Below are positions 28,695-42,021 of a stretch of DNA of 64,000 bases, piece after piece. The notes beneath the pieces are model-generated. The model searched no databases, was not told the origin of the DNA, and worked only from the letters and a program-made list of their open reading frames with translations. Location of the stretch: positions 4,373,753 through 4,437,752 of the forward strand of contig NZ_CP139781.1 of NCBI RefSeq assembly GCF_019679435.2. Reading direction: 5' to 3'. This stretch comes from Actomonas aquatica (GTDB lineage Bacteria; Verrucomicrobiota; Verrucomicrobiia; Opitutales; Opitutaceae). A program made the position numbers and the translations under genes. Each line of letters opens with the position of its first letter. Position 1 is the stretch's first letter.

Positions 28695-28763
28695 CGGAAG
28701 GAAAACGGAGCGGGAAAGGGGATAGGAGAAGGAGCGCGGGGATGACGAGAACGGAATGGGGGG

Positions 28764-28820
<57 letters not shown>

Positions 28821-28902
28821 GGGTGGGGGGCTCGGATTACAGAGAATTCATGTTTCGTTCACCTTGCGCTCATTTGTGGGGCGTAGGCTGGGCGCCGATT
28901 TG

Positions 28903-30915
28903 ATGAAAACTCCGGCTTGGTTCTCCCGCTGCATCACCCATCGCTTCGGCGGTTTGGTGCTTTTTGTGATCCTCTTTGTCGCGGTGGCGACGTTCACCCG
29001 CATTGGGCTGCTGCTGCACGAGATGTGGGCGGTGGACTGGAATGCCTCGCTCTTGGCCAGTTTCGCCTGGGGGCTGGTCTTCGACGTGGGCGCGGCGCTG
29101 CTCTTCTCGCTGCCGGGTTGGCTGGTGCTGACCCTCTTGCCGAAGCGTTTCTTCGAGCGACGCTGGGCCCGGGCGCTGGGGCACCTCGCGCTCATGGGCG
29201 GGCTGGCGGTGCTGCTGTTCACGGCGGTGTCGGAGCGGGTGTTCTGGGATGAGTTCAGCGTGCGCTTCAACTTCATCGCGGTGGATTACCTCGTCTACAC
29301 GACCGAGGTGCTGGCCAACATCAATGAGTCCTACCCGATGCCGGCCATCTTCGCGGGGCTGGCGATCGCGACCGTGGGGCTCTACCTGCTCTTCGTGCGC
29401 ACGGGCTGGGTGGACCAGTGGCTGGAGCATGCCGCCGACGGTTGGCAAAAGCGTTACGCGGCGGGCGCCGCGTGGCTGGCGCTGACGGTGCTGGCGGGTT
29501 GGGGGCTCAACCAGGGGCAGCTGCCGTCCTACCAGAACAACTACAACCGCGAGCTGGCCAAGGACGGCGTATGGTCGCTCTTCGCGGCCTTCCGCAACAA
29601 CGAACTGGCCTACGACGAATTCTACGCGACCTTGCCGCTGGACGAAGCCTTTGCCGAAGCGCGCAAGGAAGTCGCTTTTGACGGCAGTCGTTTCCTCACC
29701 GACAATCCGCGCGACCTGTTGCGCTGGATCGACAACCCGGGGGAGGAGCAGCGCCTCAATGTGATTCAGATAACGGTGGAGAGTCTCAGCGCGGACTTCC
29801 TCGGGGTGTTTAACTCCGAGTCGACGCTCACGCCGGAGCTCGACGCCTTGGCGGAGAAGAGCCTCCTCTTCACCAACTTCTACGCGACCGGCACGCGCAC
29901 GACGCGCGGCATGGAGGCGCTCTCGCTGAGCCTGCCGCCGACGCCCGGGCGTTCGCTCATCAAACGTCCGCGTAACGACGGGTTGTTCACCCTCGGCTCG
30001 GTCTTCCAGAGCCGCGATTACGACACGGCCTTCATCTACGGCGGTTACGGGTATTTCGATAACATGAACGCCTTCTTCAGCGGCAACGGTTACCGCATCG
30101 TCGACCGCGGTTCGGTGGGCGATGACGACGTGACCTTTGCCAATGCCTGGGGCGCCTGCGACGGCGATCTCTATCGCTGGACGATGCGCGAAGCCGACGC
30201 CGATTACGCGGCGGGCAAACCGTTTCACTACTTCGTCATGACGACGTCGAATCACAGGCCCTACACCTTTCCCGACGGCAAGATCGACCTGCCCTCCAAG
30301 GAATCCGGTCGCGCCGGTGCGGTGAAATACACCGACCAGGCCATCGGCGAATTCATCCGCGAAGCGTCGAGCAAACCCTGGTTCAAAAACACCGTGTTTG
30401 TCGTCGTGGCCGACCATTGCGCTTCGGTCGCCGGTCGCAGTGAATTGCCGGTGAAGTCGTATCACATTCCGCTCATGGTCTACGCGCCGGGCGGTCAGAT
30501 TGAGGCGGGCCGGATCGACGATCTCATGAGTCAGGTGGATTATGCGCCGACCCTGTTGGGACTGCTGAATTGGAGCTACGCCTCCCGGTTTTACGGTTGG
30601 GACGTGCGCCGCGCGGTGGGTGACCGCCGGGCGTTGGTGGGCAACTACCAAAAGCTGGGCCTCTTCGAAGAAGGTCGCCTCGACATCCTTTCGCCGCGCA
30701 GCGAGTGCTCCAGCTACAAGGTGGATCACACCACGCTGGTCCAGACCCGACGAGGCGAACCCTCGCCGGAACCCAACGAAGTGGTGGGTTATTACCAGAC
30801 GGCCGCCTGGCTGTATCAGAATGATGGTTACAAGGCGCTGACCCCGGCGGAGCAGCGACGCTATGCCGAGCAGGCGAACGCAGCGTCGGGCGACGGGATG
30901 GCCGCCAACTACTGA
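28903..30915 (+). CDS. LTA synthase / phosphoglycerol transferase family membrane protein
   Basis: 670 residues from MKTPAWFS; the upstream in-frame ATG lies in the heptamer array and is rejected. Five hydrophobic helices fill the first 190 residues. An extracytoplasmic alkaline-phosphatase-type domain follows: LNVIQITVESLSADFLG (metal site), GTRTTRGMEAL with the Thr nucleophile about 333-334, VFVVVADHCAS (Asp-His metal ligands) and VYAPGG. Family members transfer phosphoglycerol or phosphoethanolamine to membrane or periplasmic glycans such as lipoteichoic acid, osmoregulated glucans or lipid A. In a Gram-negative host the acceptor is unknown. The next gene starts 31 bases downstream on the same strand. 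Confidence 0.88.
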   Translation: MKTPAWFSRCITHRFGGLVLFVILFVAVATFTRIGLLLHEMWAVDWNASLLASFAWGLVFDVGAALLFSLPGWLVLTLLPKRFFERRWARALGHLALMGGLAVLLFTAVSERVFWDEFSVRFNFIAVDYLVYTTEVLANINESYPMPAIFAGLAIATVGLYLLFVRTGWVDQWLEHAADGWQKRYAAGAAWLALTVLAGWGLNQGQLPSYQNNYNRELAKDGVWSLFAAFRNNELAYDEFYATLPLDEAFAEARKEVAFDGSRFLTDNPRDLLRWIDNPGEEQRLNVIQITVESLSADFLGVFNSESTLTPELDALAEKSLLFTNFYATGTRTTRGMEALSLSLPPTPGRSLIKRPRNDGLFTLGSVFQSRDYDTAFIYGGYGYFDNMNAFFSGNGYRIVDRGSVGDDDVTFANAWGACDGDLYRWTMREADADYAAGKPFHYFVMTTSNHRPYTFPDGKIDLPSKESGRAGAVKYTDQAIGEFIREASSKPWFKNTVFVVVADHCASVAGRSELPVKSYHIPLMVYAPGGQIEAGRIDDLMSQVDYAPTLLGLLNWSYASRFYGWDVRRAVGDRRALVGNYQKLGLFEEGRLDILSPRSECSSYKVDHTTLVQTRRGEPSPEPNEVVGYYQTAAWLYQNDGYKALTPAEQRRYAEQANAASGDGMAANY

Positions 30916-30946
30916 TCGCGCCTCAGCGCGAAGACCCCTTGCTGTC

Positions 30947-31858
30947 ATGACCCCACCCCGCCTCCTCCGTCATCGCGGTTGTTATCTGAGTCTGTTGGCG
31001 CTGGTGCCGGGATTGGCGCTGGCGGGATCCGGCCCCGATGGCGCGAACGGCGGCGCGGTGGCGGATGAGGAGGTGCAGATCAAAGGCGTGTTCGACACCG
31101 AGTTGCCGCGCACGGAGCGCAAACACTACCTGCGGCTCATCGTGCACCCGCATTTCGGTGATTTGCACCGCAAGGACCACCTGCGGGCGCCGGTTGGCGT
31201 GCGTTACGGATTGACTGAAAACTGGGAAGTCTCGGCGGCGGTGGAGGGTTACTTCTCCCACGGTCTGGGCGGCATCGATCCCTTTGCCGAAGCGGGCCTG
31301 AGTGAGTTGCAGTTTGGCACCAAATACCGGCCGGACTGGACCTTGCTGGCAGGGTGGGAGATGGCGCTCGGTCTGGACTATAGCCACCCGTTGGATCATC
31401 CGCCGGTGGAGCTCACGGACGGGCTGGAGCACATGAAGCCCTACGTGACCTTTGCCCGGGACTTTCCGGATTGGCACGGCGTGCGGTGGTTCTGGGGCAC
31501 CGGCGTGGATTACGTGAGCACCACCTCCGTGGCGGGGCGGCTGGAGAAAAATGAGTTTGGGCAGAGCGCCAACACTTTCACCACGGGCTTCGTTCTGCCG
31601 CGCGAGGGCCACGCTTACACCTTTGAAACGACGTGGGCGACCAACGCGCTGATGGGCGACGGAGACCGCAACCTTAACCGGATCACGGCCCGTCCCGGTT
31701 TTGTGTTGGAGTTGCCCGATTCCTGGACCTTCGGATCGAAGGGCAACTGGGTGATGGGCGTGGCGACTCCCGTCACGTGGGGGCCCGATGGCTGGGAGTT
31801 CGGCCTATCGGTAAAATTCCGCGGCAACTTCGATCTGAAGAAGATGCTGCGACGTTAG
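30947..31858 (+). CDS. Exported beta-rich protein, possibly an outer-membrane barrel
   Basis: 303 residues from the ATG at MTPPRLLR. A signal peptide (SLLALVPGLALAG) precedes a sequence of alternating hydrophobic and polar strands: VGVRYGLTENWEVSAAVEGYF, ELQFGTKYRPDWTLLAGWEMALGLDY, WGTGVDYVSTTSVAGR and WEFGLSVKFRGNFDLK. This resembles transporter-like or MetA-pathway outer-membrane proteins in style only; I recognise no family motif. It lies between the LTA-synthase-like gene (31 bases upstream) and the PAP2 gene (18 bases downstream), which suggests one envelope operon. Confidence 0.7.
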   Translation: MTPPRLLRHRGCYLSLLALVPGLALAGSGPDGANGGAVADEEVQIKGVFDTELPRTERKHYLRLIVHPHFGDLHRKDHLRAPVGVRYGLTENWEVSAAVEGYFSHGLGGIDPFAEAGLSELQFGTKYRPDWTLLAGWEMALGLDYSHPLDHPPVELTDGLEHMKPYVTFARDFPDWHGVRWFWGTGVDYVSTTSVAGRLEKNEFGQSANTFTTGFVLPREGHAYTFETTWATNALMGDGDRNLNRITARPGFVLELPDSWTFGSKGNWVMGVATPVTWGPDGWEFGLSVKFRGNFDLKKMLRR

Positions 31859-31876
31859 CGGAGACTTGATTTTATT

Positions 31877-32593
31877 ATGCCGGACGCGACCCGCTCCTCC
31901 TGGAACCTGCAACGCACGCTCTGGCCGGCGCTCGTCGCGCTGGCGGGGGTGATTCTCCTCTTCGAATTCACGAACCTGGACCTGTGGGTGCAGGATCACT
32001 TTTTCGACTTCGCCACCGGGCAATGGTGGGTGGACCGACGCGCGCCGTTGCCGAGGGCGTTTTTCTACAACGGGCCGAAGTATGTGATCATTCTGTTGGC
32101 CGTGACCTTGCTCACGCTGCTGGTCGGTCCGGCCCGCTGGCGGGCGCGCTGGGGCCTCGAACGCAAACGGATCGGCGCGGTGCTGCTCACGTTGGCGTTG
32201 GTGCCGATCCTGATCGGGCAACTCAAGGCGCACACCAACGTGTTTTGTCCCTACGAAATCACCCGCTACGGCGGTGACGTCGCTTATGTGAAAGCCTGGG
32301 CGCCGCATCCGCCGGAACTGCAGCCGGAGCGCTGCGGGAGGTGTTATCCGGCCGGGCATGCGAGTGGCGGTTTCGCGCTCTTCGCCTTGGCCGGACTGGG
32401 GGCGACTGCCGGTTGGCGACGCTGGGGCATCGGGCTGGGCCTCGGCCTCGGCTGGATGATGGGCGGTTACCAGATGCTCAAAGGCGCGCACTACCTGAGC
32501 CACACGCTGGTGACGATGTTGGTGGCGTGGGTCATGTTCCTGCTCATCCAACGCGCGTTTCGTTTGGCGCCAGCGAATGGCGAAAATGAATAA
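31877..32593 (+). CDS. PAP2-family membrane phosphatase
   Basis: 238 residues with about six transmembrane helices. The active-site pattern is that of a PAP2 subgroup: KAHTNVFCPYEITRYGG as motif 1, CYPAGHASGG as motif 2 (nucleophile-activating His) and GAHYLSHTL as motif 3. Such enzymes dephosphorylate lipid phosphates such as lipid A, undecaprenyl pyrophosphate or phosphatidate outside the cytoplasmic membrane. It follows the exported beta-rich gene by 18 bases and is followed by YceI and polyprenyl synthetase genes, so a polyprenyl-phosphate substrate is attractive but unproven. Confidence 0.88.
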   Translation: MPDATRSSWNLQRTLWPALVALAGVILLFEFTNLDLWVQDHFFDFATGQWWVDRRAPLPRAFFYNGPKYVIILLAVTLLTLLVGPARWRARWGLERKRIGAVLLTLALVPILIGQLKAHTNVFCPYEITRYGGDVAYVKAWAPHPPELQPERCGRCYPAGHASGGFALFALAGLGATAGWRRWGIGLGLGLGWMMGGYQMLKGAHYLSHTLVTMLVAWVMFLLIQRAFRLAPANGENE

Positions 32594-32646
32594 ATGTTCA
32601 CGGCGGGTTCACCTTTGATTCATGCGCCTCGGTTAGGGTGGTCCTG

Positions 32647-33216
32647 ATGAAACGCACCTTTCTTGTCGCCCTGAGTCTTTGGTTGGTCGGTGTCGCGAGC
32701 GTCTCGGCCGCGACCAAATCACTGAGCGTCGACCACAAACAGTCCCGTATCGAAGTGGATGTGAAGGCGACCATGGGGTCCTTTGTTGGTCATCTCGCCG
32801 ATTACGATGCGACCATCGCAGTCGACGAAAGCGGCTCCGCGGTGAAATCGGCCGTCATCGCCTTCAAATTTGCCGATGTGAAGACCGGCGAGGACAAGCG
32901 CGATCACCACATGCACGACTGGCAGGAGACGGAGAAATATCCGGACGCGCGCTTTGAGTTGGTGAAGCTGGCCCCCGCGGAGGGCGGTGCGTTCGACGCG
33001 ACGGGCAAACTGACCCTGCACGGCCAGACGCAGGAACTGAGCTTTCCGGTGCAGATCACCACGGAGGGCGACACGCTGGTGATCGACGGTGAAGCCGTCG
33101 TGAACACCGAGCGCTTCGGCCTGCCGATCATCCGCAAGTTTCTCGCGCTTAAAGTGAACCCGGATGTGACCGTGCGTTTTCACCTGCAGGGCAAACTTGC
33201 CCCGGCGGCGGACTGA
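32647..33216 (+). CDS. yceI: YceI-family exported lipid-binding protein
   Basis: 189 residues from MKRTFLVA, chosen over an ATG nine bases upstream because it begins the signal peptide (ALSLWLVGVASVSA). The body has the YceI lipocalin-like fold signature: LSVDHKQSRIEVDVKATMGSFVGHL, KRDHHMHDWQETEKYPDARFE, GKLTLHGQTQEL. In Thermus and E. coli, family members bind polyisoprenoid chains, so this is probably a periplasmic carrier. The polyprenyl synthetase gene starts 54 bases downstream, which supports that role. Confidence 0.9.
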   Translation: MKRTFLVALSLWLVGVASVSAATKSLSVDHKQSRIEVDVKATMGSFVGHLADYDATIAVDESGSAVKSAVIAFKFADVKTGEDKRDHHMHDWQETEKYPDARFELVKLAPAEGGAFDATGKLTLHGQTQELSFPVQITTEGDTLVIDGEAVVNTERFGLPIIRKFLALKVNPDVTVRFHLQGKLAPAAD

Positions 33217-33270: not shown

Positions 33271-34230
33271 ATGGTTGCTCCTGTCCTGTCTCTGCCCTCT
33301 GCCGATCCCATCGTAGTCGCCATGCGTGAACACACGCCGGCGGGCGCGATGACCGAGCCGCGTCTCGCGGCTGCGCTGGATCAGGCGATTGGCAATCCCG
33401 GTAAACTTGTCCGCGCCCGCCTCGTTCACGCCGCCGCCATGACCCATGGCCTCGACGAGGACCTGGCGCTGCAACTGGCCTGCGCGGTCGAGTTCTACCA
33501 CATCGCCTCCCTGCTGCTCGACGACCTGCCCTGCATGGACGACGCGCAGGAGCGGCGCGGTCTGCCGTGTGTCCATCTCGTCCATGGCGAGTCCACCACG
33601 GTGTTGGCGTCGCTGGCTCTCATCAATCGCGCCTATGCGCTGGCCGGTTTTGCCCTGGCCGGGCAACCGATGCAGGTGCGTCTCGCGGCCATGGGTTGTC
33701 TCGATGCCTGTCTCGGCGTGCCGGGGCTGGTGGGCGGACAGGCCCGCGATCTGGCCTTCGCCGACAGCGACCGCAGTGCCCGCGAAATCGGCCGCATCGC
33801 CGCGGCGAAGACGGGCGCGCTCTTCTGGCTCGCGATCTATTTTCCGGCGCTGCTGGCGCAGCCCGATGCCGAGGAAGGCCGCCGCCTCAAGGCGCTGTGC
33901 CTTTATTGGGGCCTCGCGTTCCAGGCCATCGATGACCTGGGCGACGTGGGCGTGGCCGGAGCGGCCGATGCGTTGGGCAAGACGGCGGGGCGCGACGAAG
34001 CACTCACCCGGCCCAATCTCGCGCACGTGCTCGGCGTGCCCGCGACCGTGCGTCGTATCACCCGTCTGATCGGCCAGGCCGACCGGGCGCTGGAGGAACT
34101 GGTCGAGCGTCGCCCGGCGTGGCGCTATCTTGAAACGTTTCACCGCGAATATTTCGTGGCGAACGCCAGCCGCATCGTCCGTTATACGGGGATGGTCAAG
34201 GTCCCGGCTCCGCAGGCCGTGGCGGTCTGA
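33271..34230 (+). CDS. Polyprenyl diphosphate synthase
   Basis: 319 residues. The first Asp-rich motif is LLLDDLPCMDD and the second FQAIDDLGDV; both bind the Mg-diphosphate. GKLVRARL corresponds to GKxxRP of the family and GGQARDL to the conserved loop. The enzyme condenses isopentenyl diphosphate onto allylic diphosphates. LLLDDLPCMDD places it among farnesyl/geranylgeranyl-length synthases (the CxxC-like insert DDLPCMD is typical of the bacterial FPP/GGPP type), but product length is not certain. The ABC permease gene begins 12 bases downstream. An IPP isomerase gene lies 8 kb away on the other strand. Confidence 0.88.
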   Translation: MVAPVLSLPSADPIVVAMREHTPAGAMTEPRLAAALDQAIGNPGKLVRARLVHAAAMTHGLDEDLALQLACAVEFYHIASLLLDDLPCMDDAQERRGLPCVHLVHGESTTVLASLALINRAYALAGFALAGQPMQVRLAAMGCLDACLGVPGLVGGQARDLAFADSDRSAREIGRIAAAKTGALFWLAIYFPALLAQPDAEEGRRLKALCLYWGLAFQAIDDLGDVGVAGAADALGKTAGRDEALTRPNLAHVLGVPATVRRITRLIGQADRALEELVERRPAWRYLETFHREYFVANASRIVRYTGMVKVPAPQAVAV

Positions 34231-34242
34231 TCTTCCCCTTTC

Positions 34243-35355
34243 ATGCGCTTCCTGAGTCTTGTATTCGTAAACCTGTTACGCCATCGCCTGCGGGCGCTCA
34301 TCGGCGTGGCGGGCATCAGTTTCGGCGTCGCCGCGATGCTCACGATCCTCGCGATCGTGACCGGGGCGATCGGCATGTTCCAACGCATCCTGTCGTCGGA
34401 CAGCCACTACCTGGTGTTTGAGAAAAACGTGTCGGACCTGTTCTTCAGCTCGGTGACGACGGAGCAGGTCGAGGCGATCCGCGCGCGTCCCGAGGTCGAG
34501 GCGGCGCACCCGATGCTGTTTGGCATCGTGTCGGCGCCCGATCATCCGGTGATCACCTGCTTTGGCATCGAGGCGAGCGATCCGCGGCTGGCCAAGGGCG
34601 ACTGGCTCTCCGGCGAGGCGACGGAGTTTGGCCGACACGACGACGAGGTGTATCTCGGCGCGCGGGCGGCGGAGTTTTTGGAGGTGAGTTACGGTGACGA
34701 AATCGAAGTCGGTCGTGGCACCTTCAAAGTCGGCGGCGTGTTCAAAAACGAAAACGGTTTCGAAGACGGCGGCGTGTTCATGCCGCTGGCGACGGCACAG
34801 GAGTTTTTCCATCGCGGCAGTGCATCGTCGGTCGTGGCGGTGAAGCTGCGCGACAAGGATGAAGGTGATGCCTTCAAGGCCGGACTGGAGACGGCGCATC
34901 CGGGCATCATCGCGCTGGAGAACCGCGAGTTCAGCCAGAGTTACAACAGCTTCAAAATCCTCAATTTCACGGCCTGGGCGGTGGGCATCTGCGCCTTCTG
35001 TTTGGGCGGGCTCGGCGTGGCCAACACCATGTTGTTGTCGGTCTTTTCCCGCATTCGCGAAATCGCGGTGCTGCGGGTGTGTGGTTTCTCCGACAAGCAG
35101 GTCGCGGTGTTGATCTTCGGCGAAGCGTCGATGATCGCGGTGGCGGGCGTGGCGATCGGTTTTGCGATCGGTTTCACGGTGCTGGCGATCATGGAAGCGA
35201 CGCCGCAGTTCCAAGGTTATGTGCAGGCCACGATCTCGGCGCCCGTGTTGGGTGGCATCGTGGCGACGGCGATCGTGACCGCGGTGGCCGGAGCGATTTA
35301 TCCCGCGCGATATGCTTCGCGCATCCAACCGGCGGAGGCGTTGCGTTATGAGTGA
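34243..35355 (+). CDS. FtsX/MacB-type ABC transporter permease
   Basis: 370 residues with one transmembrane helix near the N-terminus (about 20-42), a large periplasmic domain (about 45-235) and three C-terminal helices beginning with FTAWAVGICAFCLGGLGVANTMLLSVFSRIREIAVLRVCGF, the FtsX-domain hallmark. Relatives work as mechanotransmission exporters (MacB) or lipoprotein sorters (LolCE). The ATPase gene overlaps it by eight bases (ATGAGTGA), so the two are translationally coupled. Confidence 0.9.
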   Translation: MRFLSLVFVNLLRHRLRALIGVAGISFGVAAMLTILAIVTGAIGMFQRILSSDSHYLVFEKNVSDLFFSSVTTEQVEAIRARPEVEAAHPMLFGIVSAPDHPVITCFGIEASDPRLAKGDWLSGEATEFGRHDDEVYLGARAAEFLEVSYGDEIEVGRGTFKVGGVFKNENGFEDGGVFMPLATAQEFFHRGSASSVVAVKLRDKDEGDAFKAGLETAHPGIIALENREFSQSYNSFKILNFTAWAVGICAFCLGGLGVANTMLLSVFSRIREIAVLRVCGFSDKQVAVLIFGEASMIAVAGVAIGFAIGFTVLAIMEATPQFQGYVQATISAPVLGGIVATAIVTAVAGAIYPARYASRIQPAEALRYE

Positions 35356-36028
35356 GAGCCGTGGAGAAGTCATCGCGATGGCGCGCGAGGTGGTGAAGTC
35401 CTACGACAAGGGCCGCATCACGGTGCTGCGCGGCGTGAGCCTCGAGGTGCGGGCGGGCGAGCTCGTGTCGTTGTGGGGCGCGTCGGGCTCGGGCAAGAGC
35501 ACGCTGTTGCATTTGCTGGGCGGACTCGATCTGCCGGACTCGGGCGACCTGAAGGTCTGTGGACTCGATCCGCGGCTGGAGGCCGACCGGCTGGAGCTGC
35601 GGCGGCGTCACCTCGGTTATGTGTTTCAGCTGCACAACCTCATCCCCGATCTCACGGTGGAGGAGAACGTGCGGGTGCCGGCCTTGGCGGTGGGGCGTTC
35701 GCCCAAAGAAACCGCGGCGCGGGTGCGTCAGCTGGCCGAGGAGGTGGGCATCGCGCATCGGCTCGATCACCGCATCCAGGACCTTTCCGGTGGCGAGCGG
35801 CAACGCACGGCGATCTGTCGCGCGCTGTTGAACGCTCCGCGCCTGTTGTTGGCCGACGAACCGACCGGTTCGTTGGACGAGCAGACAGGCGAGACGGTGT
35901 TTGGCCTGCTCAAAACCCTGGCCGAACGCGAAAAGATCGCGGTGGTGCTGGCGACGCACGAACGGCGTTTCGCCGAGCAATGTCACCGCATCGTGCGCGT
36001 GCGCAACGGGCTGTTGAGCGAAGTCTGA
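35348..36028 (+). CDS. LolD/MacB-type ABC transporter ATPase
   Basis: 226 residues from MSESRGEV. All ABC motifs are present: Walker A GASGSGKST, Q-loop FQLHNLIPDLTVEENV, signature LSGGERQR, Walker B LLLADEPTGSLD and switch His in LATHERRF. It pairs with the overlapping permease. One permease gene suggests a homodimer like MacB rather than a LolCDE heterotrimer. No adaptor gene is adjacent. The oxidase-like operon begins 26 bases downstream on the same strand and may share its transcript. Confidence 0.93.
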   Translation: MSESRGEVIAMAREVVKSYDKGRITVLRGVSLEVRAGELVSLWGASGSGKSTLLHLLGGLDLPDSGDLKVCGLDPRLEADRLELRRRHLGYVFQLHNLIPDLTVEENVRVPALAVGRSPKETAARVRQLAEEVGIAHRLDHRIQDLSGGERQRTAICRALLNAPRLLLADEPTGSLDEQTGETVFGLLKTLAEREKIAVVLATHERRFAEQCHRIVRVRNGLLSEV

Positions 36029-36045: not shown

Positions 36046-36077
36046 GAAATCCCAATGGTGAAAATCCCAAATCCCAA
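36046..36077. repeat. AAATCCCA repeat across the CcoN-like start
   Basis: AAATCCCA occurs three times around the assigned ATG of the CcoN-like gene (GAAATCCCAATGG, then AAATCCCAAATCCCA). An AAATCCC unit also occurs near 44791 beside another spacer repeat. Confidence 0.7.
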
Positions 36078-37353
36078 CGGGGCGGTCGCGCGCGTGGTGC
36101 GAGGGCATGCGTTGGGTTGGCTGGTGGCGGCGAACGCGGTCGGCCTGTGGCTGGCGGCGCTGCTGTTGTGGCCGACGCTGGGGGATGTGATCGCGCCGCT
36201 GAGTTATGGGCGGTGGATGCCGGTGCACATGAACTGGCAGCTCTACGGCTGGTGTGCGCTGCCGCTGGTGGGGCTGTTGTTCCGCTGGATACTCGTCGCG
36301 GAGCATCCCGGCGTGGTGCGGCACGTGCATGTCGCCCTGTGCGCGTGGTCGCTGGCGTTGGGGTTGGGCGGCGTGTCGTGGTTGGGCGGCACGGTGAGCG
36401 GGAAACTGTTTTTGGACTGGCATGGCTGGGCGCGACCGGTGTTGGCGCTGGCGATGTTGGTCTTGTGGACCGTGCTGGCGGCGCACCTCTGGTGGGGCTG
36501 GCGGAGCGAGGCGGGGTGGCAACGCTGGGCGAAGTTGGCGGTGCTGGGCGGACTCGTGGCCGTGCCGCCGCTCATGTGGTGGGTGGCGGGGCGTGACGTG
36601 TATCCGGCGGTGAATCGGGACAGCGGCGGCGCGACCGGCGCGGCGCTGCTGGGGTCGACCCTCGGCATCGTGGGCATCTTCGGCTTCATGCCACGCCTGC
36701 TGGGCGTCTCACAACGCGCTGCGAGCAAACAGGATGGGAGCACTTGTCACGTATTACGTGACAAGTGGTGGCGGGGGGGCGAGGGGTGGTTTTGGGGGGC
36801 GTATGGGGTTTCGATCGGGGCGTGGCTGGCGATCGAGCGGGGGGATTCGAGTCATCACGACGTCGAGCAGATCGTGGGGCTGGGGGTATTGTTGGCGTGG
36901 ATACCCTTGTTGATCTGGTGGTGGCGGCGGCAGGCGTGGTGCGCAGGCGCACGGCCGTGGATTCTGGCGGCGCTGGCGTGGTGGGCGCTGCTGGTGTTGA
37001 CCGGCTGGCTGACCTTTTTGCCGGAACTTTCGGAGCGGTTGAAGTTCACCAACGGGCTGGTGGCGCATGCGCATCTGGCGATGGCGGGGCTGGTGACGAG
37101 TGTGAATGCCGCGATTTTGAATCAACTGGATCCGGCGCGACCGCTGCGGCGGGGCTTCGGGCTATGGCAGGGCGGTGCGGCCGTGATGGTGGTGGTGTTG
37201 CTGGTGATGGGCTGGTTTGAGCGCGATCACGCGGCGGCCTTTTTCTACGGTGACGCCTGGTGGGTGGACGCCGGCTACGGGGTGAGGTTGGCGGCGGGGG
37301 TGGCGATGGCCCTTGCCTCAGTGCAATTGCTCAGAGAGACCACCCGGCGATGA
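36055..37353 (+). CDS. CcoN-like haem protein with atypical copper-site residues
   Basis: 432 residues and about 11-12 transmembrane helices. Similarity to cbb3 oxidase subunit I is clearest at LKFTNGLVAHAHLAMAGLV (His 338, His 340, the helix-X haem ligands) and VHMNWQLYGW (His 58, helix II). HHDVEQIVGLGVLLAWIP (267-268) may correspond to the helix-VI copper His. The paired helix-VII histidines of CuB (normally GPHH) are not visible; that stretch reads WLTFLPEL. Residues 225-240 are a hydrophilic insert encoded by a perfect palindrome. The ATG lies within an AAATCCCA repeat, so a nearby downstream GTG is possible. The stop overlaps the next start (ATGA). Confidence 0.7.
   Translation: MVKIPNPNGAVARVVRGHALGWLVAANAVGLWLAALLLWPTLGDVIAPLSYGRWMPVHMNWQLYGWCALPLVGLLFRWILVAEHPGVVRHVHVALCAWSLALGLGGVSWLGGTVSGKLFLDWHGWARPVLALAMLVLWTVLAAHLWWGWRSEAGWQRWAKLAVLGGLVAVPPLMWWVAGRDVYPAVNRDSGGATGAALLGSTLGIVGIFGFMPRLLGVSQRAASKQDGSTCHVLRDKWWRGGEGWFWGAYGVSIGAWLAIERGDSSHHDVEQIVGLGVLLAWIPLLIWWWRRQAWCAGARPWILAALAWWALLVLTGWLTFLPELSERLKFTNGLVAHAHLAMAGLVTSVNAAILNQLDPARPLRRGFGLWQGGAAVMVVVLLVMGWFERDHAAAFFYGDAWWVDAGYGVRLAAGVAMALASVQLLRETTRR
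36741..36767. repeat. Perfect 27-base palindrome inside coding sequence
   Basis: CACTTGTCACGTA and TACGTGACAAGTG are exact 13-base complements around one central T. The element lies in frame in the CcoN-like gene and encodes part of a hydrophilic loop (STCHVLRDK). Confidence 0.9.
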
Positions 37354-37775
37354 TGACTTCCGCTCAAACCCTGCAACGTGCCCGGGTGCTCGCCGTGTTG
37401 GCGGGCGCGATGGATTTTGGCACGGGTCTCGGGATGGTGTTTCTGCCGAGCTTCACGTTGAAGCTGATGATGGTGCCGGTGCCGGAGGGCGACGGGCTGC
37501 TGTATGCGCGCTTCGTGGGGGCGTTTGTGGGTGCGGTGGGGTTCTCGTATTTGTGGGCGCTGCTGAGCGGGGTGGGAGCGGAGCGCGGGCGGGCGTTGCG
37601 GGCGGTGTTGCGCTTTACGATTCCGTTCCGGGTGGCGGCCGGGTCGTTTTGTCTGGCGGCGGTGATCGGTGGGGCGTTGGCGCCGATGTGGCTGAGCGTG
37701 ACCTTGGCGGACTACGGGCTGGTGGCGTTGCAGACCTGGTTGCTGCGCGGTAGCTGGGAGGAGGGCGCGGTATGA
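37350..37775 (+). CDS. Small membrane protein of the oxidase-like operon
   Basis: 141 residues from MMTSAQTL (or the adjacent ATG three bases on). It has about four hydrophobic helices: RVLAVLAGAMDFGTGLGMVF, ARFVGAFVGAVGFSYLWALLSGV, FRVAAGSFCLAAVIGGALAP and VTLADYGLVALQTWLL. No known motif is present. It overlaps the CcoN-like gene and the fusion gene by ATGA at each end, so its product is probably needed in step with both. An assembly or small structural subunit (a CcoQ-like position, but larger) is possible. Confidence 0.7.
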   Translation: MMTSAQTLQRARVLAVLAGAMDFGTGLGMVFLPSFTLKLMMVPVPEGDGLLYARFVGAFVGAVGFSYLWALLSGVGAERGRALRAVLRFTIPFRVAAGSFCLAAVIGGALAPMWLSVTLADYGLVALQTWLLRGSWEEGAV

Positions 37776-39334
37776 AGTATGTGGCACAAGTGCGGCCCGG
37801 TCCGAAGTCGGGCGTGACGGAGTTTACGCCGGAGAAGTCGGCCCTGATCGCGGCGGGGGCGGTGATCGCGGCGACGTATTTCTATTTCCTGATCTATGCG
37901 GAGTTCGCGTTGTTGGAGTTGGCCAAACCGGTGGTGGGCGACGAAGCGTGGCGTTTGCGCGGGCTGATGTTTGCGCTGGGGGCGGGTGGCTTGATCGGCA
38001 GCATTTGGGCGGCGAAGCGTTTTAATGTGCTGAGTCTGCAGGCGCGGTTGAGCTGGTCGTTGCGCGGCTGTGCGGTGGGCGCGGCGCTGGCGCTGGGGAG
38101 TCAGAACTGGGCGCTGTTGCTCGTCTCGGCGTTGGTGAGTGGCGGAGCGCTGGGGGCGCTGACAGTGAACCTGGCGACGAGTCTGCGACCGGTGATCGGG
38201 ACGAGTAAACTCGGCTGGGTGATCGGCTGGGGCACGGGCCTGGCTTACCTGCTGTGCAACGTGCCGTGGGTGTTTGAAGCGAGTCCGCGGTTGCAGACGA
38301 TCATGGCGGCGGTGGTGGCGGCTTCGGCTTCGGTGTTTTCCCCGTTTTTGGCGCCACAGGAACCGTCGGTGTCACCGGAACGTGAATACGCGCCCAGCGG
38401 TTTGCTGCGTTGGGTGGGCGTGCTGCTGATGCTGGTGTGGCTGGATTCGGCGGCGTTTTTTGTGATTCAGCACGAAGCCGGTTTGAAGGAGCAGACCTGG
38501 GTGGGAGCGGCTCAGCTGTGGGGCAATGGCGTGGTGCATCTGGGGCTGGCTTTGCTGGCCGGGCGCTTGCTGGACCGCGGCGTGCGGGTGGCGTTGCCGG
38601 TGGTGGCGTTTGCGCTGCTGGCGGCGGGGTGTCTGCTGTTGGGCGATGGCGGCAGCGGACTGGCGGCGTGGTTTTATGCGGCGGGGGTGTCGCTGTATTC
38701 GGTGGTGCTGGTATATTATCCGGCGCGCGGTGGCCGGGCGTGGCAGGCGGCGGTGGTGTATGGTCTGGCCGGCTGGGTGGGATCGGCACTGGGCATCGGT
38801 ATGGCGCAGGATTTGGCGCGGGTGCCGGGGGCGTTTCTGGTGGTCGCCGGGGTGGTGATCGCGGTGATGGTGGGCTGGCGGTGGAAGGCGCTGCGCGCGG
38901 CGGCGATGGTGGCGGTGATTGTGGTGGGGATGGGCGTGGTGGGGGCGGAGGTGCGGGCGGAGGTGATCGGGGATAAAGAGAAAGAAGTGGCGGTGGCGTT
39001 GGGGCGGGAGGTGTATATCGCGGAGGGGTGCATTCATTGTCATTCGCAGTATTTGCGGCCGAGTGTGCCGGCGGAGCGGGCGGAGGCGGCGGGGCTCACG
39101 GTGGAACCGGGCGAGCCGCCGTTGTTTGGGAATCGGCGGCAGGGGCCGGACCTGATGGCGATCGGGCGCCGGCTGCCGAGTGCGGACTGGCACCGGGAGC
39201 ATTTGCGGGATCCGCGCAAGGTGCGTCCGGGCTCGCGTATGCCGGCTTATGCCTACTTGTTTGCGGAAGGTGATGAACGTGGCCCTGCGTTGGTCGCTTA
39301 TCTGATGAGCCTGGGCAGCCCTGTTACCCCATGA
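37772..39334 (+). CDS. MFS-like membrane domain fused to CcoO-type cytochrome c
   Basis: 520 residues. Residues about 20-375 form twelve hydrophobic helices in an MFS-like arrangement (AEFALLELAKPVVGDE, ALGAGGLIGSIWAAKR). A thirteenth helix (about 375-395) leads to a periplasmic cytochrome c domain. This has GCIHCHSQYLRP (Cys 420, Cys 423, His 424), the haem site and RP tail typical of CcoO/FixO, then QGPDLMAIGRRLP and GSRMPAYAYL (axial Met 490). CcoO normally has one anchor helix, so the fusion is odd. The join (residues 399-405, GDKEKEV) is encoded by an 18-base spacer-type repeat. Overlaps neighbours by ATGA on both sides. Confidence 0.8.
   Translation: MKYVAQVRPGPKSGVTEFTPEKSALIAAGAVIAATYFYFLIYAEFALLELAKPVVGDEAWRLRGLMFALGAGGLIGSIWAAKRFNVLSLQARLSWSLRGCAVGAALALGSQNWALLLVSALVSGGALGALTVNLATSLRPVIGTSKLGWVIGWGTGLAYLLCNVPWVFEASPRLQTIMAAVVAASASVFSPFLAPQEPSVSPEREYAPSGLLRWVGVLLMLVWLDSAAFFVIQHEAGLKEQTWVGAAQLWGNGVVHLGLALLAGRLLDRGVRVALPVVAFALLAAGCLLLGDGGSGLAAWFYAAGVSLYSVVLVYYPARGGRAWQAAVVYGLAGWVGSALGIGMAQDLARVPGAFLVVAGVVIAVMVGWRWKALRAAAMVAVIVVGMGVVGAEVRAEVIGDKEKEVAVALGREVYIAEGCIHCHSQYLRPSVPAERAEAAGLTVEPGEPPLFGNRRQGPDLMAIGRRLPSADWHREHLRDPRKVRPGSRMPAYAYLFAEGDERGPALVAYLMSLGSPVTP
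38968..38985 (+). repeat. Coding copy of the AAAGAGAAAGA spacer repeat
   Basis: CGGGGATAAAGAGAAAGA is identical to 42841-42858 in a gene-free spacer. Here it encodes the linker between the membrane part and the cytochrome c domain. Confidence 0.7.
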
Positions 39335-39999
39335 AAATTTTGGTCGTCGAAGATGAGCGCAAGGTGGGTCAGTTCGTGGCTCAGGCGCTGAGCGAGCAGT
39401 CCTACACGAGTCGGTTGGTGGGCACGGCGGCGGCGGCGCGGGATGCGTTGGCGGACTCGCCGTATGACGCGGTGGTGCTCGATCTGGGACTGCCGGATGG
39501 TGATGGGCTGGAGCTGTTGCGGGAGTGGCGGATGAGTGGGTTCAACGAGCCGGTGTTGATCCTGAGTGCGCGGGATGCGGTGAGTGATCGGATTCAGGGG
39601 CTCAATCTGGGGGCGGACGATTACCTGCCGAAACCGTTCAGTGTGGATGAGCTGGTGGCGCGGGTGCGGTCGTTGTTGCGGCGGCATAGCAGTGCGCCGC
39701 GGGCGACGGTGCTGGAGCGCAATGGGGTGCGGATGGATTTGCTGGGGCGCAACGTGACCCTGGAAGGGGCGGCGGTGGAATTCACCAATCGCGAGTATGC
39801 TTTGCTGGAGCTGTTCATGCAGAACGCGGGTCGGGTGCTCACGCGCACGCTCATCGCGGAGAAGGTGTGGGAGGCGTCCTACGACATGGAGACCAATTTG
39901 ATCGACGTGTATGTGCGGCGGCTGCGGCGGAAGCTGGAGCCGGACGGGAGCGCGCCGCGTTTCAAGACGGTGCGCGGGTCGGGGTATCAGATGTTATGA
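39331..39999 (+). CDS. OmpR/CusR-type response regulator
   Basis: 222 residues. The receiver domain has VVEDERKVG, phospho-acceptor Asp 51 in VVLDLGLPDGDG and Lys in YLPKPFS. The winged-helix DNA-binding domain includes LEGAAVEFTNREYALLELFMQNAGRVLTR and ETNLIDVYVRRLRRKLE. It most resembles the heavy-metal or QseB-like branch. It overlaps the fusion gene before it and the kinase gene after it by ATGA, so it is made together with the redox proteins and probably controls its own operon. The inducing signal is unknown. Confidence 0.93.
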   Translation: MKILVVEDERKVGQFVAQALSEQSYTSRLVGTAAAARDALADSPYDAVVLDLGLPDGDGLELLREWRMSGFNEPVLILSARDAVSDRIQGLNLGADDYLPKPFSVDELVARVRSLLRRHSSAPRATVLERNGVRMDLLGRNVTLEGAAVEFTNREYALLELFMQNAGRVLTRTLIAEKVWEASYDMETNLIDVYVRRLRRKLEPDGSAPRFKTVRGSGYQML

Positions 40000-41384
40000 T
40001 ACGCACCTTCACCTTTCGCACGACGCTATGGTTTGCGGGCTTGGTGACGGGCATCCTCGTGGCGGTGCTGGCGGTGGGCGGCTGGTTGCTGAACCGGCAG
40101 ATGATTGCGGGGTTGGAGTTGTTGCACGAAGTGGAGGCGGAGGAGCTGGGCGAGCTCTTGGGCAGTGATGGCGCGCTGAGTGCGGCGGAGATTCAGGATC
40201 GCATCGCGCATGATGCGGACAGCGATGCCGAATTGTTTTTCATCCAAGTGCGGGGGCGCGACGGGGTGGTGCGGTTTCGTTCCGACAATTTGGAGGAGGC
40301 CGTGCTGCCGGATTGGTCGCAGCGCGGAGTGCACTGGACGTATCAATTGCCGGGGGTGGGGCCGGTGCGGGTGACCAGTATGACGGAAGGCCCGTGGCAC
40401 CTGCAGCTCGCGAGTCGCCTGGAGCCCAATCGGCGGGTGTTGAACGACTATTTGCGAGTGGCGGGATTGTTGGTGTTGGGCGGTGCGTTGGTGTCGGTCG
40501 GCTTGGGCTGGGGATTCACGCGGGTGACGCTGGCGCCGATCCGTTCGATCGAACGCACGGCGCGACGGATCGGGGCGGACAACTTGAGCGAACGCATTCC
40601 GGTGCCGGCGGGGCGGGACGAGTTGGCGGCGCTGTCGCGGTTGTTGAACGAAACCTTTGCGCGCATCGAGGCGGCGTTTGGGCAGGTGCGGCGGTTTACG
40701 GCGGATGCCTCGCACGAGCTGAAGACGCCGTTGGCGTTGATCAAGTTGAACGCGGAGAAGCTGCGACCGCATCTGGCCGACGACGAGGAAGGCGAGGCGA
40801 CGCTGAACAACGTGCTCGAGGAGATCGAGCGGCTGCATCAGATCATCGAGCACCTGTTGTTTCTATCGAAGGCGGAGAGCGGCGTGTTGCGGCTCGAATA
40901 CGAAGCGCTGCGCATGCCGGATTGGCTGAGGGATTGGGAGGAGGACGCCGGCGTTTTGGCGGAGGATGTCGGCGTGCGTTTTGAGTTGGTGGAGGAGGGG
41001 GCGGCGACGGTGCGCGGGGTGCCGAGTTTGTTGCGGCAGTTGCTGTTTAATCTGCTGAGCAACGCGTTGAAATTTAGCGAGGCGGGTGGCCGGGTGACGC
41101 TGCGGGTGCAGGTGCGCGGGGGACGTTGCTGGTGGTCGCTGGAAGATGAGGGGCCGGGTCTCCCGGAGGATCAACTGGCGCGCGTATTTGATCGTTTTGC
41201 GCGGTATGTGCCGAGTGCCGGCAACGGGCGCGCGGACAGTGACGTAGAGGCGAAACCTGGTCACGGTCTCGGGCTGGCGATCTGCAAGAGCATCGTCGAG
41301 CTGCACGGTGGGGTGATCCGCGCGGAGAACCGGCGGGAGCGCAAGGGGCTGCGCGTGGTGGTGGAGCTGCCGGTGGTGGGGTGA
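39996..41384 (+). CDS. HAMP sensor histidine kinase, partner of the OmpR-type regulator
   Basis: 462 residues from MIRTFTFR, overlapping the regulator by ATGA. Two transmembrane helices (about 12-34 and 149-172) flank a periplasmic sensor of about 115 residues. A HAMP domain (LAPIRSIERTARRIGADNLSERI) follows. His about 240 lies in ADASHELKTPLALI. The ATPase domain has LLFNLLSNALKFS, LEDEGPGLPEDQ and GHGLGLAICKSIVELHGG. The layout is that of CusS-like kinases. It probably monitors an envelope or redox state tied to the operon; no metal-binding motif stands out in the sensor. Confidence 0.92.
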   Translation: MIRTFTFRTTLWFAGLVTGILVAVLAVGGWLLNRQMIAGLELLHEVEAEELGELLGSDGALSAAEIQDRIAHDADSDAELFFIQVRGRDGVVRFRSDNLEEAVLPDWSQRGVHWTYQLPGVGPVRVTSMTEGPWHLQLASRLEPNRRVLNDYLRVAGLLVLGGALVSVGLGWGFTRVTLAPIRSIERTARRIGADNLSERIPVPAGRDELAALSRLLNETFARIEAAFGQVRRFTADASHELKTPLALIKLNAEKLRPHLADDEEGEATLNNVLEEIERLHQIIEHLLFLSKAESGVLRLEYEALRMPDWLRDWEEDAGVLAEDVGVRFELVEEGAATVRGVPSLLRQLLFNLLSNALKFSEAGGRVTLRVQVRGGRCWWSLEDEGPGLPEDQLARVFDRFARYVPSAGNGRADSDVEAKPGHGLGLAICKSIVELHGGVIRAENRRERKGLRVVVELPVVG

Positions 41385-41469: not shown

Positions 41470-41973
41470 TTACTTCGCGAAGAGCTGGTCGAGCTCGTCG
41501 TCGGGATCGAGGAAGCGGATGGCGGCGATGGTGCCGTCGGCGTTGAAGTCGAAGACGGTGAGTTTGCCCTTCTGCTCGGGGTAGCGATCGAGGAGGTGTT
41601 CGTCGTCACCGAGGAGGATGCGGTGGGGATACTTTTTCATCTTGGGCAGGGCGAACATGCGGCCGATGCCGGGCATGCCGTAGATGTTGGCGAGGAAGAC
41701 GGCGTCGTGTTTCTCGAGCCAGGTGGCGCCCTGCTTTTCGAAGTAGCGGTTGGCGTCTTTGCCGGTGCCCATGACGAAGCTGACGATGAGGTGGCGCGTG
41801 TCGCCGCCGGGGGCGACGGTCACGTCCTTCTCGTGCTGGTCTTTGACGGCGATGGTTTCGAACTTGTCGCCGACCTCATAGGTGTCGGTCGGGGTGTCGG
41901 CGGCGCCGAGGGCGGCGGCGAACAGGGGCAGGAAAACGAGGGTAAGCAGATTGCGAGCGACGTGGGTAATCAT
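41470..41973 (-). CDS. Exported thioredoxin-fold protein lacking redox cysteines
   Basis: 167 residues from MITHVARN, giving a signal peptide (LLTLVFLPLFAAALGA); an ATG 39 bases upstream extends it without benefit. The mature part follows the redoxin/YtfJ pattern: YEVGDKFETIAVKDQHEKDV, HLIVSFVMG, AVFLANIYGMPG and KLTVFDFNADGTIAAIRFL. No cysteine occurs in the mature chain, so a thiol redox role is unlikely. It runs toward the end of the oxidase-like operon and follows the IPP isomerase gene by 48 bases on the same strand. Confidence 0.65.
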   Translation of the reverse strand: MITHVARNLLTLVFLPLFAAALGAADTPTDTYEVGDKFETIAVKDQHEKDVTVAPGGDTRHLIVSFVMGTGKDANRYFEKQGATWLEKHDAVFLANIYGMPGIGRMFALPKMKKYPHRILLGDDEHLLDRYPEQKGKLTVFDFNADGTIAAIRFLDPDDELDQLFAK

Positions 41974-42021
41974 GGGAGGAGATGCAAACGAAGTTGCGGG
42001 TAAGAAGCGCAAGGTGGCGTT

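Follow-up and report, generated by a model that had tools for sequence, protein, structure and literature searches.

What does a heme-copper oxidase subunit do when its usual copper ligands are gone? The defining feature of the heme-copper superfamily is a heme-metal pair at which O2 or NO is reduced. The window, a 64,000-nucleotide stretch of Actomonas aquatica DNA, encodes a relative of oxidase subunit I that, according to a first-pass annotation, seemed to lack the paired CuB histidines. The open reading frame proposed there is real (Table 1). Because the motifs described below are common to relatives down to 39% identity, a chance or frame artefact could be ruled out, and because the frame is open and conserved the window copy is not a pseudogene.

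Table 1. Coordinates of the CcoN-like gene, its diagnostic residues and the surrounding gene cluster in the window
Feature	Position	Strand	Remarks
YceI family lipocalin	32638..33216	+	Signal peptide-like N-terminus
Prenyl-diphosphate synthase (FPP-synthase-like)	33271..34230	+	Both Asp-rich motifs
ABC permease, LolC/E-MacB-like	34243..35355	+	
ABC ATPase, LolD-like	35312..36028	+	Start probably near 35348
CcoN-like 12-helix heme protein, 432 aa	36055..37353	+	H58, H338 and H340 invariant; canonical helix VI CuB His absent
H58 codon	36226..36228	+	Helix II; aligns with CcoN H60, an axial ligand of low-spin heme b
GGATG (191-195)	36625..36639	+	Nearly invariant; helix VI start, near the place of the CcoN CuB His (YGHN)
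E261-R262	36835..36840	+	Most likely stand where the CuB His pair of helix VII would be
S266-H267-H268 (start of HHDVEQ)	36850..36858	+	Helix VII-VIII loop; alternative CuB pair position in one of four MAFFT alignments
WLTFLPEL (residues 318-325)	37006..37029	+	Helix IX end and next loop, not helix VII
H338-A339-H340	37066..37074	+	Helix X; align with the axial ligands of the b3-like and b hemes
Small 4-helix membrane protein	37350..37775	+	Weak DUF4345 resemblance in relatives; start overlaps CcoN-like stop (ATGA)
MFS-fold transporter fused to CcoO/FixO-like mono-heme cytochrome c (CIHCH)	37772..39334	+	
OmpR-type response regulator	39331..39999	+	Overlaps cytochrome c gene
Sensor histidine kinase	39987..41384	+	Nearest model cztS/silS/copS, below cut-off

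Against the 432-residue product, Pfam COX1 scored 18 bits, below its cut-off of 34.8, and no NCBIfam model, including that for CcoN (TIGR00780), gave a match. Of 16 family members, 11 had a COX1 match, the best at E 1.9e-10 (Pfam), and the first family profile found only weak matches among PDB sequences, CcoN appearing at E 0.2-0.36. HHalign aligned 32 family members with 22 CcoN-like proteins over 400 columns at a probability of 98.3; with smaller subsets the probability lay anywhere from 0.06 to 98.6, the low value coming from a single global run in which seven distant members were set against canonical CcoN. An AlphaFold2 model of the window protein, made from a 14-sequence alignment, had 12 long helices, a mean pLDDT of 87.5 and a pTM of 0.89. 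Foldseek with this model placed cbb3 CcoN chains at the top (3mk7, E 4.6e-7) and a cNOR fifth. VIA-align gave its highest Z score, 25.4, to cNOR 4xyd (rmsd 4.2, 379 residues), with cbb3 structures at 23.1-23.9 and aa3-type oxidases lower, at about 16.5-19.5. The 12 helices are those of a subunit I and the best structural matches are superfamily members. Judged from the predicted structure, the window protein truly belongs to the heme-copper oxidase fold, as a remote member, and its placement as a divergent C-type (CcoN/NorB-like) subunit forms part of our best explanation of the locus.

The likeness to CcoN of the cbb3 (C-family) oxidases (TIGR00780, PDB 3mk7) covers the 12-helix fold, YGR..P.H in helix II, a GK motif after helix III, HxH in helix X and a CcoO-like cytochrome c partner, although identity is about 15% and scores remain below curated cut-offs. 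NorB of cNOR (PDB 4xyd, 3o0r) likewise shares the fold, a b-heme pair and a cytochrome c partner. Axial histidines for both hemes, in helix II and in the HxH of helix X, are present throughout 39 family members drawn from Opitutales, from family f29 of the same class and from one genome elsewhere in the phylum. H58, H338 and H340 are the sole invariant histidines of this set, and in every full alignment made they match the helix II low-spin ligand and the two helix X ligands; the first-pass annotation had recognised all three correctly. Conservation across genera, families and orders makes this ligand pattern more than chance. The alignments suggest that both b-type heme sites are kept and presumably occupied, with H58 and H340 as the predicted low-spin ligands and H338 proximal to a b3-like heme.

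The profile alignment with CcoN that the first-pass annotation had proposed as a check bore on the metal site. The helix VI CuB histidine of CcoN aligned with A193 in all four MAFFT modes and with G195 or A196 in hhalign, and never with a histidine of the window protein. By all methods of alignment with CcoN, then, the helix VI ligand of CuB, or of the FeB site of cNOR (three His and one Glu), is absent from the window protein. Three of the four MAFFT modes put the helix VII pair on E261/R262, as did the first hhalign run, a comparison by hhalign with an L022-like set, and the matches of hmmsearch to 3mk7 and 9g6b; the remaining MAFFT mode put it on H267/H268, and hhalign with canonical CcoN alone placed it in a gap. 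In the AlphaFold2 model helix VII spans residues 237-259, followed by a loop (260-269) and by helix VIII from residue 270, so that H267/H268 lie just before helix VIII. On sequence profiles and these helix boundaries, rather than on a residue-level superposition, E261/R262 are most likely the equivalents of the helix VII pair. In bovine oxidase the CuB pair sits closer to where helix VII ends; this fits E261/R262, as a lead and not as a test. True CcoN genes of the same and related genomes kept GHN and GPHH in the same alignments.

These alignments bear out the view of the protein as a subunit I relative without the usual CuB ligands, and extend it to helix VI, which the first-pass annotation had not mentioned. 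Its statement that WLTFLPEL replaces the GPHH pair was right about the absence of the canonical set and wrong about the helix. WLTFLPEL aligned with the STFEGP segment of CcoN, and helix IX of the model comprises residues 300-321; this segment is therefore not at the GPHH position and is uninformative about the CuB pair. HHDVEQ had been offered as a possible source of one copper ligand. This may hold for the window protein, where H267/H268 are indeed present, but they are not invariant in the family, with histidine at 267 in 32 of 39 members and at 268 in 31 of 39. Position 262 is histidine in 28 of the 39 and arginine in the window protein. The cross-linked tyrosine (Y251) and E323 of CcoN have no conserved equivalent in the family (T/S/D at 316). 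The usual CuB ligands thus appear to be missing from helix VI and probably also from helix VII. At least part of the copper site seems to have been lost in the window protein, which may well lack copper. Without CuB, the usual four-electron chemistry is unlikely.

A degenerate protein could still be an enzyme. It might hold a distal metal on H267/H268 together with other residues (or, in relatives, on H262/H196), or carry out unusual NO, O2 or peroxide chemistry on heme b3 alone, and we regard such an oxidase or NO reductase as unlikely. Its nearest folds are NO reductase and cbb3 oxidase, and since one MAFFT mode places H267/H268 on the CuB pair, the window protein may have part of a metal site. 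The family tree adds to this. One clade of eight (support 100/100) has histidine at position 196, and in this clade H196 aligns with the helix VI CuB histidine and H262 with one of helix VII; seven of the eight have Asn at 267. The other 24 of the 32 tree members have Ala or Thr at 196, and all 24 have HH at 267-268. This pattern hints that positions 196 and 267 may both bear on one pocket, but it carries little statistical weight since it could reflect one event on the tree. Weighing against an enzyme are the lack of any invariant histidine beyond the heme sites, the missing helix VI histidine of the window protein, and the want of conserved counterparts to Y251 and E323.

Among 373 genomes of the order, the family profile detected 27 loci of near full length and a single fragment; a phylum sample of 388 added members in f29 and G425. 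Most other weak matches were apparently ordinary CcoN-type genes, with frames of about 500-860 residues that matched over the first 167 positions. No match was found among plasmid records. In one genome of the same genus (G006; L102) the whole cluster described below is present and looks decayed, several genes having broken frames; other relatives keep it intact.

In the window, ATGA overlaps link the CcoN-like gene with those for the 4-helix protein, the MFS-cytochrome c fusion and the regulator. Across 38 loci carrying the CcoN-like gene, a same-strand MFS and/or CcoO-like cytochrome c gene was found in every one, the Lol-like ABC permease and ATPase each in 35, YceI in 34 (33 same-strand), the prenyl-diphosphate synthase in 31 and the small 4-helix protein in 28. 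The ABC genes are absent from three loci and the prenyl synthase is not nearby in seven, some of these loci lying at contig ends. Both Asp-rich motifs are kept in every prenyl synthase found in an intact cluster, and three of the 38 loci add an IPP isomerase. The window cytochrome c is a CcoO-type mono-heme partner, matching FixO at 80.8 bits against a cut-off of 29.6. Most relatives have a second CxxCH domain, called from the motif and sequence alone, and the window protein has the first domain only; at 39331-39334 the regulator start overlaps the cytochrome c stop where most relatives have this second domain. The MFS domain gave a confident MFS model, with marginal MFS_1 matches in two relatives, and is fused to the cytochrome c domain in most members. 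The searched open-access literature gave no description of this cluster or of CuB-less subunit I homologues like the window protein, so this appears to be an undescribed conserved Verrucomicrobiota gene cluster.

Genes flanking the cluster recur less often. On its far side, at 41470-42012 (-), the window encodes a secreted-looking protein of 180 residues with no Pfam or NCBIfam match, and relatives of this protein, usually encoded on the opposite strand, lie close to the cluster in 9 of 38 loci. Before the cluster, at 28756-32593, lie sulfatase/phosphoglycerol-transferase-like, outer-membrane-like and PAP2 lipid A phosphatase-like genes; the sulfatase gene accompanies the cluster in four of the 38 loci and the PAP2 gene in five.

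The first-pass annotation had suggested an electron carrier or a sensor. Electron transfer is favoured by the partner genes, since a cytochrome c/MFS partner accompanies every locus and since cytochrome c and b hemes occur together in a conserved operon. YceI proteins bind ubiquinone-8 or octaprenyl compounds (PMC9113575), and in Burkholderia the YceI lipocalin BcnA and the b561 cytochrome LcoA protect against lipid peroxidation, LcoA being proposed to re-reduce the quinone bound by BcnA (PMC9113575). As in the BcnA-LcoA system (PMC9113575), the window encodes a YceI lipocalin with a membrane cytochrome b that would be di-heme. The membrane cytochrome here has an oxidase fold and is not a b561, YceI is missing from four loci, and the cluster, known here from its genes, adds cytochrome c, MFS, ABC and prenyl synthase genes. 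The shared logic of isoprenoid synthesis, an isoprenoid-type lipocalin and a predicted di-heme b protein favours an envelope redox module.

Our preferred reading, which we put forward tentatively, is that the cluster encodes a b/c-type electron-transfer module for periplasmic chemistry on a lipocalin-bound, quinone-like isoprenoid, rather than an O2-reducing oxidase. The CcoN-like protein would be its membrane b-heme electron-transfer subunit, possibly able to bind a small ligand, and may form a complex with the CcoO-like cytochrome c, the fusion partner or gene neighbour of the MFS transporter. Electrons would pass, in one direction or the other, between the pool of cytochrome c and an isoprenoid redox carrier. 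The prenyl-diphosphate synthase would help to make this carrier and the periplasmic YceI lipocalin would hold it, so that the whole would act as a functional analogue of the BcnA-LcoA envelope antioxidant pair. The isoprenoid link is drawn from gene neighbourhood, and the prenyl synthase and YceI could serve another pathway. That the family is an oxidase-fold class without oxygen chemistry, serving as the membrane electron-transfer partner of an isoprenoid-carrying lipocalin in a Verrucomicrobiota envelope redox system, is a larger claim which we consider doubtful.

The cbb3 oxidase of Rhodobacter signals to PrrBA, a model for a redox or gas sensor subunit that signals to an adjacent two-component system. 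In the window the regulator gene directly overlaps the cytochrome c gene, and the kinase is closest to metal-sensing models. The regulator adjoins the cluster in 20 of 38 loci, a count which weakens a dedicated sensor role and led us to drop the two-component system as an obligate part of the cluster. It was not detected near the cluster in the other 18, some of which are short contigs; these include all seven non-Opitutales members (L121-L127), where weak matches of at most 162 bits lie away from the cluster. A sensor seems improbable. We think it equally improbable that the cluster is a transport module whose MFS protein moves a metal, heme or organic substrate while the b and c hemes merely reduce or oxidise it: the fusion of MFS and cytochrome c in most members fits such a module, but in one clade the two are separate genes, and Foldseek with the MFS part returned generic MFS transporters only, suggesting no substrate class. 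CcoA, an MFS protein, may be counted in favour of transport. It is reported to be a copper importer serving heme-copper oxidases (PMC5829832).

The window's genome has four COX1 proteins above cut-off, including an ordinary CcoN-CcoO fusion with YGHN, GPHH and GHVH. In the same genome a weak COX1 relative (L024 1333-2826, 33.5 bits) is encoded immediately ahead of a complete COX1 protein that has GHQ and HH motifs (L023 1381-3105), and this pair is perhaps a two-subunit variant. Another CcoN-like family (L067, L068, L069, L070 and L071; TIGR00780 at about 120-142 bits) has lost the helix II histidine and the helix X HxH, so its members would probably not bind heme in the usual way; c-type cytochrome genes follow the CcoN-like gene in L067, L068 and L071.

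The fold and the heme sites described here are known from the superfamily. What appears new, as far as the open-access literature goes, is that an entire conserved branch, with this gene company, has lost the canonical metal site. For genome annotation such a branch would be a caution against counting its genes as oxidases, and the conserved cluster provides a ready list of candidate partners. A widespread, selected branch with both hemes and no canonical metal site would reveal other uses of the heme-copper scaffold.
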